Assembly (NCBI GenBank): GCA_019114755.1
Contig: DXEW01000003.1
Coordinates: 17,332 to 81,331 of the forward strand
Direction: 5' to 3'
DNA length: 64,000 nt
From: Candidatus Borkfalkia faecavium
GTDB lineage: Bacteria; Bacillota; Clostridia; Christensenellales; Borkfalkiaceae
Positions 1,277-57,610 of the stretch are shown in pieces. The position numbers and the translations under genes are program-made. The notes beneath the pieces are model-generated. The model was not told the DNA's origin and searched no databases. It saw nothing but the letters and a program-made list of their open reading frames with translations. How positions within the stretch are numbered: the first letter of the stretch is position 1; each line of letters opens with the position of its first letter.

Positions 1277-1683
1277 AGAGACATTATAACACACTTTGAA
1301 AAAAAAGCAAAGTATTTATGGGCAAAAAAACAAATAGTCCTGCAAATGTTGGAGAAAATTGTCGCATTTGTCACAAATCGAGGCAAAAATTTTTTCCGAC
1401 GCCTTTGCGGAAGGAAGTGGGCGCCCCACCGCGCAACGTTCGCGCCCGCGCGCTTGTGGTGACCTCGCCATAAACCTCCGCGATCATCCGCCGCACCGCA
1501 CAACGTCCGCGCCCGCGCGCCTGCGCAAATGGTAAATGTAAAATGTAGAATGTAAAATTCCGGATACAATAAAAAATAATTCTCGCGCAAGCAAAACCAC
1601 GCTTTTGCGCCAGCGCCCCCAATTTGCCGTTAGGCTCATGCAGGAAAGGTGAAGCCGCGGCATTTTTATTCCAAACTATTCTC

Positions 1684-1901
1684 AAAAAACGGCAAAATCA
1701 CACTTTTGCCGTTTTTCCCTTATGAGCATACGGATGGAGGTGAATGCGCCGCGCGTTTTATCAAGGGTGTGCCCTGCAATGCGCGGCGCAGAGGGGAGAA
1801 ACCGCCGCCAGTATGGCGCGCAAATTTGCGCGCCAACGCACGGCAGGTTTCCCCCTTACTCTCGACAATTTCTTTCGTCAGCTCGAAAGAAATTGTGAGA
1901 A
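1684..1901 (+). repeat. Structured dispersed element, copy 1, abutting the GNAT stop codon; a partial copy precedes it (~1585-1665)
   Basis: aacggcaaaatcacacttttgccgttttt; TATGagCATA; ggaggtgaa; TGCGCCGCGC-gttttatcaagggtgtgccctgcaat-GCGCGGCGCA; gggagAAACC...TGGCGCGCAAATTTGCGCGCCA...GGTTTcccc; CAATTTCTTTCGtcagctCGAAAGAAATTG; tgagaa. Confidence 0.75.
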
Positions 1902-2396
1902 CTAAATTCTGTATTCATAAATATAATCATCCATCACAAAGCCGCTGCCGATGTCGGTGACGGTGTGGTCGGTGCGCGTGAAGCCGAACTTTTCGTAAGC
2001 GCGCACGGCGCGGGCGTTGCCCGTGTTGACGGTGAGGTACACCGCCTTCAGCCCCCTCTCTGCGGCGATCTCTGCCACGGCGGCGAGCGCCTTTTGCCCG
2101 ATGCCGCGGCCGCGCTCTTCTTCCGTAAGGTATAATTTGGAGAGGAACAGCTTCTCTTTTTCGGGGTGCAGGGCGCAGTAGCCGATGCGCCGCCCTTCGC
2201 CTTCGATATAATAATACAGGTACCCCTCTTCGCGCACCTGCCGTTCGATGGCGGCGGCGCTTTGGAAGGTATCCGTCATATACTTGACCTGCGCTTCGCC
2301 CAAAAGGCCGTCGTACGCGGTGTGCCACTGGCGGGCGATGAACTGCGCCAGCGGGGCGTATTCTTCTTTTTGAGCGGGAACAAAACGGATGTCCAT
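1902..2396 (-). CDS. GNAT-family N-acetyltransferase
   Basis: GNAT core ...LYLTEEERGRGIGQKALAAVAEIAAERGLKAVYLTVNTGNARAVRAYEKFGF. Start taken at MDIRFVP. Confidence 0.88.
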   Translation of the reverse strand: MDIRFVPAQKEEYAPLAQFIARQWHTAYDGLLGEAQVKYMTDTFQSAAAIERQVREEGYLYYYIEGEGRRIGYCALHPEKEKLFLSKLYLTEEERGRGIGQKALAAVAEIAAERGLKAVYLTVNTGNARAVRAYEKFGFTRTDHTVTDIGSGFVMDDYIYEYRI

Positions 2397-20999: not shown

Positions 21000-21790
21000 T
21001 CCGCCGCTCCGCGAAGCCGCGACCGCGCCCCTGCAACGCCTGTACCCGCGCACTTCGCTCCCCACCTTGTCACCCTGAGCTCGTCGTCACACGCCTATGC
21101 TGTCAGCATTTTGCCTTTTGGCAAAACGCTCGACCTGCAAGGCGGCTCCTCCTCTTTCCCAAAAATCTCGCTGCGCTGCGATTTTCGGGAGCCCTATTAT
21201 CATAGCCCGCCGAGTGGAGTTATCTTGCGCGTTTGCGTATCGGAAGACAAACGCCTTCCCTTCCTTGCCTTCCCCCTTTTTAAGGGGGAAGGTGGCACGA
21301 GCCGCTTTTGCGGCGCGTGACGAATGAGGGTTGTTCCATCCTTATTATTAGCCGCTCCGCCTAAAATAAGGACAGTATCCCCTCATCAGGCGCTCCGCGC
21401 CAGCTTCCCCATCAGGGGGAAGCCATGCATAGAGCCATTTTCTTCTCTGCTTTACCATTCTATACAAGAGCCCTCCGCTCGGTCGCTTTTACAGGGATCC
21501 CAAAAAGTATCGAAAAACTTTTTGGGAAGAGGAGCGGCAGGCGCTGCGGGCGAGGCGGCAAACGCAGTGCGCCGCCTGCCTTGGCGCCTTGCCGCGACGA
21601 GCTCGGGATGACAAGGATGCGTTTTGTTTTCAGAGATCCTTCGTCGCTTCGCTCCTCAGGATGACAGGGGGGGAGGCGCGGCGGGGCGCACGGGCGCGAG
21701 CTTTCCTTCTATGTCACCCTGAGCGGAGCGGCGAACAGAATGTGAGCCGCGCAGTCGAATGGGTCTCTTTTAAATGTAGAATGTAGAATG
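21000..21790. repeat. Modular dispersed-repeat island
   Basis: Includes cccaaaaatctcgctgcgctgcgattttcgggagccctat, tgagggttgttccatccttattattagccgctccgcc, ggcggcaaacgcagtgcgccgcctgcc and gagatccttcgtcgcttcgctcctcaggatgacag, all recurring elsewhere in the window. Confidence 0.85.
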
Positions 21791-21828: not shown

Positions 21829-22062
21829 GCGCAAGCAAAACCACGCTTTTGCGCCAGCGCACCCCATTTGCCGCATACCTGCGGCTCTTGCAGGAAAGGT
21901 GAAGGCTGCGCGCATTTTATAATAAGTGTGCCCTGAAAAGGCGCGCTGCCGAGGAAAACTCCGAACAGAAAACGCGCTATCTGCCGATAGCGCGTTTTGG
22001 TTGGGGTTTTCCTAAAATCACGGAATTTTGTTTCATCAGCTTGAAACAAAATTTGTGAACCC
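21829..22062 (+). repeat. Structured dispersed element, copy 2; candidate structured RNA abutting the phoU stop codon
   Basis: gcaaaaccacgcttttgc; GCCGCAtaccTGCGGC; caggaaaggtgaa; GGAAAACTCC...AAAACGCGCTATCtgccGATAGCGCGTTTT...GGGGTTTTCC; AAATTTTGTTTCAtcagctTGAAACAAAATTT; gtgaaccc; then the phoU stop. Confidence 0.8.
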
Positions 22063-22725
22063 TTAGTTGAGCTTCTTATGCTCGCCCGTGAGCATGAAGA
22101 TGACCCACTCGGCGATGTTGGAGGCGTGGTCGCCGATCTTTTCCAGATACTTTGCCACCATCAGCAGGTCGAGCGCCTGCTCGCCGTTTTCGTCGTCTTC
22201 GATATTTTTATGGACGATGGAGGTGAGCTTGCGCTTGATGACGTCGAACAGGTCGTCGACGGCGTCGTCTGCACGGCAGACGGCCTTTGCCATCTCGCCG
22301 TCGCGCTCGACGAATGACTTGGTGGCATTGCGCACCATCGCCTGCACCCTGTCTGCCATTTCGGCGATCTCGGTGAGCGACTCGGCATACGGGAGCTTGC
22401 TCATTTTGATCACCAGCTCGGAAATATCCGCCGCCTGGTCGGCGATGCGCTCCATATCCGTGATCATCTTCATGGCGGAGGTGATAAAGAGAAGATCGCT
22501 TGCCACCGGCTGCTGCTTTAAGATGAGCTTTAAGCACAGGCGCTCGATCTCCTGCTCTTTTTCGTCGACCAGCGTTTCTACGGACTTGGTCTTTTGGGCG
22601 AGGGCGACGTCTTGCGTCTCCAAAGCGGTGACGGCGTCGGCAATGGCTTCGGTATTCAGCTGCCCCATCTGGATGAGCAGGTCTTTGAGCTTTGCGATCT
22701 GCTCTTCAAAAATCTTTCTGGTCAT
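22063..22725 (-). CDS. phoU: Phosphate uptake regulator PhoU
   Basis: MTRKIFEEQIAKLKDLLIQMGQLNTEAIADAVTALETQDVALA, ITDMERIADQAADISELV. Downstream of pstB. Confidence 0.93.
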   Translation of the reverse strand: MTRKIFEEQIAKLKDLLIQMGQLNTEAIADAVTALETQDVALAQKTKSVETLVDEKEQEIERLCLKLILKQQPVASDLLFITSAMKMITDMERIADQAADISELVIKMSKLPYAESLTEIAEMADRVQAMVRNATKSFVERDGEMAKAVCRADDAVDDLFDVIKRKLTSIVHKNIEDDENGEQALDLLMVAKYLEKIGDHASNIAEWVIFMLTGEHKKLN

Positions 22726-31445: not shown

Positions 31446-32300
31446 ATGATCACATTGCAAAACGAAAGGCTGCGCGTTTGCCTCGCCGAGCGGGGCGCGG
31501 AGATCGTGAGCGTGCAAAACGCCGACGGGTACGAGTTCATCTGGCAGGCGGACCCCGCCTTTTGGGGCAAGCACTGCCCCCTGCTGTTCCCCGTGTGCGG
31601 CAGGCTGCTGCACTTTACGCATGTGTATGAGGGGAAGGCATACAAGATGGGCAACCACGGCTTTGCCCAGCGCAAAATTTTTGCGGCAAAGCAGCTTTCC
31701 GGCACGCAGGCGGAATTTACCCTGCACGAAGACGAAGAGACGCTTTCCGAATACCCCTTCCGCTTTGCGCTGACCGTGCGCTATACCCTGGAGGGCAACG
31801 CCCTGACCATCGAGACGGGCGTGGAAAACACCGACAACAAGCCGCTGTACTGCAACTTCGGCTCGCACGAGGCGTACGCCGCCGGCGGGAACTTTACCGA
31901 CTGGGCGGTGCGGTTTGAAAAGAAGGAAGACTTTGTGCTCACCGAACAGAACGCCGACGGCCAGCTGACGGGCAGGCGCATCCCCTACAAAGACGATACC
32001 GACCTTTTGCCCCTTTCCTGGGAGATGTTCGCCAACGATTCGCTGCTGTTTGACGGCCTGCGCTCGCGCAAGGTATGGCTGGAACATAAGGGAGAACGGG
32101 TGCTGGAAGTGGAATTTGCCGATTTTCCGCACCTCTTACTGTGGACCAAGCCGGGGGCGCCGTATATCGCCATCGAGCCGTGGAACGGCCTGCCCGACAC
32201 CGCCGACGCCGACGGACAGCTGCGGCATAAGCTCGGCATCCTCCGCCTCGACCCCGGCGAAAGAAAGGCGGCGCCGCATACGATAAAATTTTTAAAATAA
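31446..32300 (+). CDS. Aldose 1-epimerase family protein
   Basis: GAEIVSVQNADGYEFIWQADPAFWGKHCPLLFPVCGRL, KMGNHGFAQRK, IAIEPWNGLPD. Confidence 0.88.
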   Translation: MITLQNERLRVCLAERGAEIVSVQNADGYEFIWQADPAFWGKHCPLLFPVCGRLLHFTHVYEGKAYKMGNHGFAQRKIFAAKQLSGTQAEFTLHEDEETLSEYPFRFALTVRYTLEGNALTIETGVENTDNKPLYCNFGSHEAYAAGGNFTDWAVRFEKKEDFVLTEQNADGQLTGRRIPYKDDTDLLPLSWEMFANDSLLFDGLRSRKVWLEHKGERVLEVEFADFPHLLLWTKPGAPYIAIEPWNGLPDTADADGQLRHKLGILRLDPGERKAAPHTIKFLK

Positions 32301-32539
32301 AAAAGTTCACACAATTCTCGCCGCGACGGCGGCTGCGAATTGTCGTGATTTTAGGGAAACCCCGCGGGGCGCCATTCGGCTAGCCGCGGGGTTTCCCTCT
32401 TTGCGCGGCGATTTAAGGGCACGCCTTTATCAAACGCCGCGCAAATTCACCTTTCCCCGTGCAGCTCCTCGCTGTAAGGGGAAAAAGGCAAAAGCGTCGT
32501 TTTGCCTTTTTCTGTTGTTTATGGAGCGATAGAGAGTTT
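32301..32539 (-). repeat. Structured dispersed element, copy 4, starting directly after the aldose-epimerase stop codon
   Basis: Reverse complement: ggcaaaacgacgcttttgcctttttc; CAGCgaggaGCTG; ggaaaggtgaa; TTGCGCGGCG-tttgataaaggcgtgcccttaaat-CGCCGCGCAA; GGGAAACCCCGCGG...CCGCGGGGTTTCCC; CAATTC...GAATTG; tgtgaac. Confidence 0.8.
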
Positions 32540-36328: not shown

Positions 36329-36571
36329 AAAACTCCCTATCGCTCCATCAATCAAGGAAAAAGGCAAAACCACGCTTTTGCCTTTTTCACCCTACAGCGA
36401 GGAGCTGCATGCAGGAAAGGTGAATGTGCCGCACGTTTATAAAAGGTGTGCCCCTAAATGTGCGGCACAGAGGAAAACTCCGATTGCGCCGCGCTGCAAG
36501 CGCGGACAATGGGGTTTTCCTAAAAATCACGAAATTTTGTTTCATCAGCTTGAAACAAAATTTGTGAACCC
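36329..36571 (+). repeat. Structured dispersed element, copy 3, abutting the stop codon of the second feoA gene
   Basis: ggcaaaaccacgcttttgccttttt; CAGCgaggaGCTG; caggaaaggtgaa; GTGCCGCACG-tttataaaaggtgtgcccctaaa-TGTGCGGCAC; GGAAAACTCC...GGGGTTTTCC; AAATTTTGTTTCAtcagctTGAAACAAAATTT; gtgaacccc; then the stop. Confidence 0.8.
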
Positions 36572-36778
36572 CTACACTATTATCTTCATCGCCACATCCC
36601 TGTTCAGCGCCAGGCGGCCGTCTTTGACGCGCACGATGACGGCGCCTTCCGACGAGAGCAGCTGCAGCTGCGCGCCCACGGCGATGCCCAAACTTTCAAA
36701 ATGGCGGCGCTCGCGTTCGCCCAGCAATATTTTTTTGACGATGAGCTCTTCCCCCACGGGGGCGATGGGCAGCGGCAT
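36572..36778 (-). CDS. FeoA-family protein (second copy)
   Basis: MPLPIAPVGEELIVKKILLGERERRHFESLGIAVGAQLQLLSSEGAVIVRVKDGRLALNRDVAMKIIV. Confidence 0.8.
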   Translation of the reverse strand: MPLPIAPVGEELIVKKILLGERERRHFESLGIAVGAQLQLLSSEGAVIVRVKDGRLALNRDVAMKIIV

Positions 36779-49079: not shown

Positions 49080-49510
49080 TACACTTATCTCTGTCATCCC
49101 GACCGAGGGAGCGAGAGAAACGAGCGACCGAGCAGAGGGATCTTGTATAGGACGCAAAAGCAGGGAAGAACACGGCAAAAAGAGTTCGTTTCCCGATACG
49201 CACCGCGCAAGATTTCTCCACTCGGCGGGCTTGCAGCCCTTCTCGGTCGAAATGACAGAAAGAGAGACCCGTTCGACTTCGCGGCTCGGCTTTGCCTTCG
49301 CCGCTCCGCTCAGGGTGACATAGGCGGGCGTTCGCGTTGCTTCCCTCTCTGTCATCCTGAACTCGTCGCGCCAAGGCGCCATGGCAGACGGCGCACTGCG
49401 TTTGCCGCCTTGCCCGCAGCGCCTGCCGCTCCTCTTCCCAAAAAGTTCTTCGATACTTTTTGGGAGCCTTATTTTGAGTCCGTGCGAGTCGAAGGATCTC
49501 TTCTTAAATG
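49080..49510. repeat. Modular dispersed-repeat island
   Basis: tgtcatcccgaccgaggga, gatttctccactcggcgggcttgcagcccttctcggtcgaaatgacag, ggcgccatggcagacggcgcactgcgtttgccgcc, cccaaaaagttcttcgatactttttgggagcc. Confidence 0.85.
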
Positions 49511-57039: not shown

Positions 57040-57610
57040 CCCCATGTCATCCTGAGCGAGCGTAGCGAGCCGAAGGATCTCTTTTTGAATGGTAAATGTA
57101 AAATGTAGAATGTAAAGTTTTGGACGATGTATAAAACATTTTTTGAATACATCCTGAATTTTACATTTTACACTCTACATTCTACATTTCTCCCTTGTCA
57201 TCCCGACCGAGCGAAGCGAGTGGAGGGATCTTGTATAGGGCGCAAAAGCTGTTCCGAACACGGTTCTCTACATGGCTTCCCCCTGAGGGTGAAGCTGGCG
57301 CGAAGCGCCTGATGAGGGGATACCATCCTTGTTTTAGGCGGAGCGGTTAATAATGAGGACGGAACAACCCTCATCCTCGTCGCGTCAAGGCGCCATGGCA
57401 GACGGCGCGCTATGCTTGCCGCCTTGCCCGTTGCGCCTGCCGCTCCTCTTCCCAAAAAGTTCTTCGATACTTTTTGGGAGCCCTATATATGCGTGCCACC
57501 TTCCCCCTTAAAAAGGGTGAAGGCATGAATAGGGAAGGCGTTCGTAACCGATACGCACCGCGCAAGATTTCCCCCTTCGGCGGGCAAGGCGGGCGGCGGA
57601 AACGGTGACA
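57040..57610. repeat. Modular dispersed-repeat island, including an ATGTAAA-type palindrome at 57087..57190
   Basis: tgtcatcctgagcgagcgtagcgagccgaaggatctc; tcatcccgaccgagcgaagcgagtggagggatcttgtat; ggcttccccctgagggtgaagctggcgcgaagcgcctgatgagggg; cccaaaaagttcttcgatactttttgggagccctat. Confidence 0.85.

Follow-up and report, generated by a model that had tools for sequence, protein, structure and literature searches.

The closest described systems include other folded repeats. The BOX elements of pneumococci, assembled from boxA, boxB and boxC, are short, modular, folded interspersed repeats that are often adjacent to genes; 36 copies supply a gene's stop codon, and the elements have terminal inverted repeats and target duplications (PMC3049150). 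REP and BIME palindromes, which are accompanied by RAYT transposases, occur in many extragenic copies and in mosaic arrays in which pairing is preserved (PMC2817692). Structured-RNA surveys have added the MRSC class, many-copy structured motifs with an inconsistent orientation to genes, whose structure may act as DNA; one of them, MRSC-65-2, is a UYCCGG repeat found in a wide range of phyla (PMC11109978).

The element considered here is about 230 nt long, contains several hairpins and is found, in dozens of copies per genome, among a group of uncultured Clostridia from the gut. Compared by organization, it resembles BOX in being short, folded, variable in module content and near genes; unlike in BOX, no terminal inverted repeats or target duplications were found, one of its ends almost always faces a gene, and its stems covary strongly. 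It shares with REP and BIME the many extragenic palindromes per genome, the mosaic arrays and the retained pairing, but it has four hairpins where REP has one short palindrome headed by GT(A/G)G; its own genome contains no Y1 transposase, and across the genus its numbers are not correlated with one. Like the MRSC motifs it is structured, abundant and inconsistently oriented to genes, although it differs from MRSC-65-2 in having a GTGNGCCC loop and in being found here in one order. Integron attC sites, at which recombination acts on a folded strand, immediately follow a stop codon and conserve structure over sequence. The element likewise has a conserved fold and a site just past the stop codon, but its ends (GTTCAC or GTTCTC in the sense of the gene) do not fit the GTTRRRY core, and its copies are dispersed over the chromosome and not gathered in one cassette array. 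Our search of open-licence articles found the BOX, REP and MRSC kinds and no description of this family. Judged against those papers, the modular folded interspersed repeat is a known kind of element; the family itself, its polarity toward the edges of open reading frames (ORFs) and its Watson-Crick-only covariation look new.

Copies, distribution and neighboring repeats

The window (the whole stretch of 64,000 nt that was analyzed) holds four near-complete copies and no others (Table 1). The original prediction had placed four copies there, with the same order of parts in each and with tails at stop codons, and all of this is confirmed: each of the four P4 ends has a stop no more than 5 nt away, and in copy 1 position 1902 serves both as the C of GAGAAC and, on the other strand, as the G of the TAG. 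Read in the orientation of that prediction, the element consists of P1, a linker ending in GGAAAGGTGAA or GGAGGTGAA, P2, P3 with a nested hairpin, and AAATCACG-P4-GTGAAC; the P2 loop is TATAA...GTGTGCCC. The truncated older copy directly precedes copy 1, and an equivalent arrangement is found at two other loci (L026 and L036).

Table 1. Positions of the element and of other repeats; positions are those of the window unless a locus is named, and distances from P4 tail to facing stop follow gene calls made here
Feature	Positions	Strand	Parts	Facing stop (gene)	Distance (nt)
Truncated older copy	1582..1670 (about)	+	P1 (GCGCAAGC type), linker, P2 5' arm only		
Copy 1	1684..1902	+	P1 1684-1716; core (linker, P2, P3, P4) 1734-1902	TAG (GNAT gene, 1902-2396, - strand); last base in common	-1
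Copy 2	21829..22060	+	P1 (GCGCAAGC type) from 21829; core 21893-22060	TAA (phoU, 22063-22725, - strand)	2
Copy 4 (reverse)	32305..32539	-	core 32305-32456; P1 32480-32512	TAA (aldose-epimerase-like gene, 31446-32300, + strand)	4
Copy 3	36329..36569	+	P1 36356-36388; linker GGAAAGGTGAA 36414-36424; P2 arms 36425-36434/36460-36469; P3 36470-36521; P4 36527-36567; tail to 36569	TAG (feoA-like gene, 36572-36778, - strand)	2
Repeat of ~120 nt inside P2	L006, L009, L016, L103:702-993				
Related ~120-nt repeats	21495-21613, 49350-49468, 57376-57493				
Further repeat families	1535, 17268, 21773, 27853, 32585, 36059, 49060, 49507, 57045 and others				

A BLAST search with copy 3 returned 67 matches in the source genome. 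The covariance-model and Rfam searches that the original prediction had proposed were both run. Model R1, built from 36 copies of the source genome, has 89 matches at E <= 0.01 in that genome (1.73 Mb) and matches in 35 of 37 genomes of a genus sample, often at least 48 per genome; the two other genomes (G001 and G004) have none. Among 297 genomes of the order, six from a second genus of the same family have matches, in copies with the hairpins ordered P1-P2-P3-P4 and with the conserved loop in P2, and two other families of the order give weak ones. No Rfam family matched the window at the gathering threshold, a relaxed search gave only sub-threshold, chance-level matches, and an exact pattern search of viral contigs found nothing. 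The named records that carry the element are metagenome-assembled genomes of uncultured Clostridia or Firmicutes, one of them from chicken. In one genome from another family of the order (G068; L166, L173), a related, weaker element has the same hairpin order and tandem copies; its P2 is without the conserved loop, and the end of one copy is some 8-9 nt away from a called stop.

Other repeats share these intergenic regions. Three copies of the source genome, and the element in another species, contain a second repeat (GGGCTCCCGAAAATCGCAG...GCGACGAG; about 120 nt) at one and the same position within P2. This repeat is also found alone, and its presence in P2 reflects either nested insertion into a fixed target or the retention of an ancestral long form. 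The intergenic regions of the window are crowded with further families that do not lie flush with genes, among them ATGTAAAATGTAGA strings in inverted pairs and GTCATCCTGAGCGA...GAAGGATCT. In the region upstream of the tmRNA gene (L012:620-1650), the element stands in tandem units of about 281 nt, in which the 5' end of the tmRNA and its promoter also survive as a remnant.

Covariation, modules and turnover

The stems had been predicted to vary in sequence while staying paired, and a larger alignment bears this out. In alignment A3, which comprises 146 copies from about 30 other genomes and was fitted to the model, a procedure that favors the structure, standard pairs make up 97.4% of the 4744 pair cells (68.2 on average after shuffling, sd 0.5; 39-54% with slid partners), double changes occur in 32 of 34 pairs, and the covariation score is 0.715 as against 0.220 for shuffled and at most 0.161 for slid partners. 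Double changes are already present in 27 of the 34 pairs in A2, a plain MAFFT alignment. The covariation is strong and far beyond chance.

The hairpins behave as modules. There are two main P1 types, 14 P2 alleles and 12 P4 alleles in the 36 copies of the source genome, and the P2, P3 and P4 alleles form 31 combinations among them, a free combining of modules like that of BOX; head-to-tail arrays with AT-rich junctions and chimeric P4 hairpins are also found. At the 3' end of phoU, the sister species G012 and G017 have the element in the same place with different P4, P3 and P2, and in the clade of G009, G019 and G022 P3 is common to all and P4 differs in G009. Since elements at one site carry different alleles in sister species, a pattern repeated at a second gene end, modules appear to be swapped in place.

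The sites themselves turn over. Among 29 species with readable phoU 3' ends, 11 have the element, and in a simple scan about half of the element-free phoU genes have an ordinary terminator-like hairpin instead; the phoU tree, which is the tree of one gene, forces at least three changes of element state. Of 73 genes with flush copies in relatives, only seven are also flush in the source genome, so that about 90% of flush sites are unshared and positions are mostly not inherited as gene-specific regulators. A vertically inherited, gene-specific regulator is thereby ruled out as the general rule, although a small number of sites, those at asnS, obgE, ychF-like and rplJ, are found again in other species. 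No clean pair of insertion and empty site with intact flanks was obtained among the species compared. At one phoU locus (L137, G020) a lone P4-like hairpin, with no P1 to P3, lies between the stop and an ordinary terminator.

Polarity toward coding sequence

The original prediction held that the element always abuts a stop codon, and this fails genome-wide: only 34 of 69 tails in the source genome lie within 40 nt of a stop. Enrichment directly after stops is nonetheless evident, with 28 of those 69 tails within 8 nt and, in the 146 copies of relatives, 54 within 10 nt and seven more within 40 nt; in the other repeat families of the source genome, 3 of 57, 1 of 10 and 0 of 19 copies end within 10 nt of a stop. 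Of the 69 copies, 49 have a stop on the P4 side and 13 a start; in the remainder the contig runs off or there is no called gene on that side. Six of the 69 lie just upstream of a Shine-Dalgarno sequence or start, including those at fabF, yhbY and rplJ, and others form tandem arrays or are farther from genes. Tails within 40 nt of a start number 25 of 146 in relatives, where the terminal GAGG of P4 is sometimes part of the Shine-Dalgarno sequence. These start-side copies (about 9% in the source genome, 17% in relatives) have the opposite sense relative to the gene from those at stops. In two intergenic regions of the source genome (obgE-yhbY and one before a rarA-like gene) P4 faces both genes. 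The ftsY-like gene of G008 (L084) has a flush P4 end at either side, separated by 2 nt from the stop and by 20 nt from the start.

Taken together, the copies facing stops, starts and both genes suggest a better rule, namely that P4 usually faces, and often touches, coding sequence. In the source genome, 40 of 69 copies have the P4 end no more than 40 nt from a gene edge, and in relatives 86 of 146 do; the core starts within 125 nt of the gene on the P1 side (a distance of about 40 nt after some 85 nt are set aside for P1) in two and about nine copies, respectively. It is P4, and rarely P1, that touches coding sequence, and this polarity is the rule.

How the family may spread

The structure, polarity, modularity and turnover described above are observed features of the element. 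The account of them that we prefer, on which our confidence is evenly balanced, is a lineage-specific family of modular hairpin repeats of the BOX or BIME kind, which spreads and turns over as DNA with P4 facing genes. New copies, moved by a presumed enzyme, would land, or be tolerated, chiefly at the borders of coding sequences, in most cases in the short interval behind a stop and in fewer cases a little ahead of a Shine-Dalgarno sequence; on the P1 side, the space between genes would then fill with tandem copies and other repeats. Exchange of stem modules between copies, by recombination or conversion, would keep pairing intact while the sequence changes. At 3' ends the element may replace a terminator as the transcription border, P1 resembling a two-way terminator. 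The polarity may come from selection rather than from insertion, and the conserved linkers and P2 loop could equally serve an RNA.

The original prediction offered both an RNA-level element and a mobile element targeting stop codons. The second fits better, although no mobilizing enzyme was found in the genomes searched, nor a target-site duplication (the longest shared flank word is 4.17, as against 4.08 in shuffled pairs, for 36 copies whose left boundary is placed only approximately), nor terminal inverted repeats, the left end (CTCGCGCAAGC or CTCGAAAAAG) being unrelated to the right (GTGAAC). It is conceivable, but in our estimate unlikely, that the family belongs to a new class of elements that recognize ORF edges, in which a folded single strand, either DNA or the element's own P1-to-P4 RNA, would be inserted P4-first by an enzyme at stops and ribosome-binding sites, leaving no target duplication.

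We also think it improbable that the element works in mRNA, as a structured 3'-UTR (or 5'-UTR) whose function would be termination or transcript protection and which would be selected at gene ends, its spread being secondary. The strong ORF polarity and nearness to stops would suit such a role, as would the A-run/stem/T-run form of P1, readable both ways, the terminator-like hairpins that several element-free phoU genes have in its place, and the sites that recur at asnS, obgE and rplJ. The pairing argues otherwise. RNA helices normally tolerate G-U on one strand. P2 and P4 in the 146 copies of relatives are about 98% Watson-Crick, with 23 G.T and 17 A.C in 3603 cells and no strand bias, and the P4 stems of stop-flush copies (988 cells) have 985 Watson-Crick pairs, 2 G.T and no A.C, so that the G-U tolerance in the mRNA strand expected of a 3'-UTR or attenuator is not seen there. 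Because both mismatches are equally rare, P2 and P4 point to DNA palindromy or to arms replaced as units. In P3 the wobble bias tracks the element's own strand and not the gene's (37 G.T as against 2 A.C in stop-flush copies), and these G.T pairs would become A.C mismatches in the mRNA of stop-flush genes. The opposite senses at starts and stops, the unshared flush sites and a scan of copy 3 in which no terminator was found also weigh against a role in mRNA. Of the RNA-level element first proposed, then, the dispersal, the structure and the lack of an Rfam match stand; the RNA level itself (3'-UTR, attenuator) is disfavored, since Watson-Crick-only pairing holds on both strands of P2 and P4 and the P3 wobbles lie on the strand antisense to the gene at stops.

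A free-standing RNA running from P1 to P4, transcribed from an internal promoter (for example, around the TATAA of the P2 loop) and ending near P4, seems to us quite unlikely. Sequence conservation of the P2 loop (TATAA...GNGNGCCC) and the linkers extends to another genus, and the P3 wobbles favor the P1-to-P4 strand in every context (68 G.T as against 2 A.C), a bias that comes from few columns and alleles; P2 and P4 show no such bias, copy 3 has no consistent promoter, and there is no Rfam relative. Movement as a classical MITE or REP, driven by a resident insertion sequence (IS200/IS605, RAYT, TnpB-type or other), would account for the element's size and copy number, its hairpins, its place between genes and the occurrence of nested or tandem copies, but it is very unlikely, given that the source genome has no Y1 transposase despite its 89 matches, that Y1 genes are present in the copy-free G001 and G004, that among 40 genomes of the genus a single one has TnpB (PF07282) above cut-off, that the presence of Y1_Tnp, RVT_1 and TnpB across the genus does not follow copy number, and that the element has no target duplication and unrelated ends in P1 and P4.

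The borders of bacterial genes are shaped by dispersed hairpin repeats, for which the reason for their placement is rarely testable. With a single polarity rule and covariation that is nearly Watson-Crick-only, in tens of copies per genome and in dozens of species, this family is a tractable system, one that lets us ask whether such repeats target the edges of ORFs or are selected there, and which enzyme moves them.
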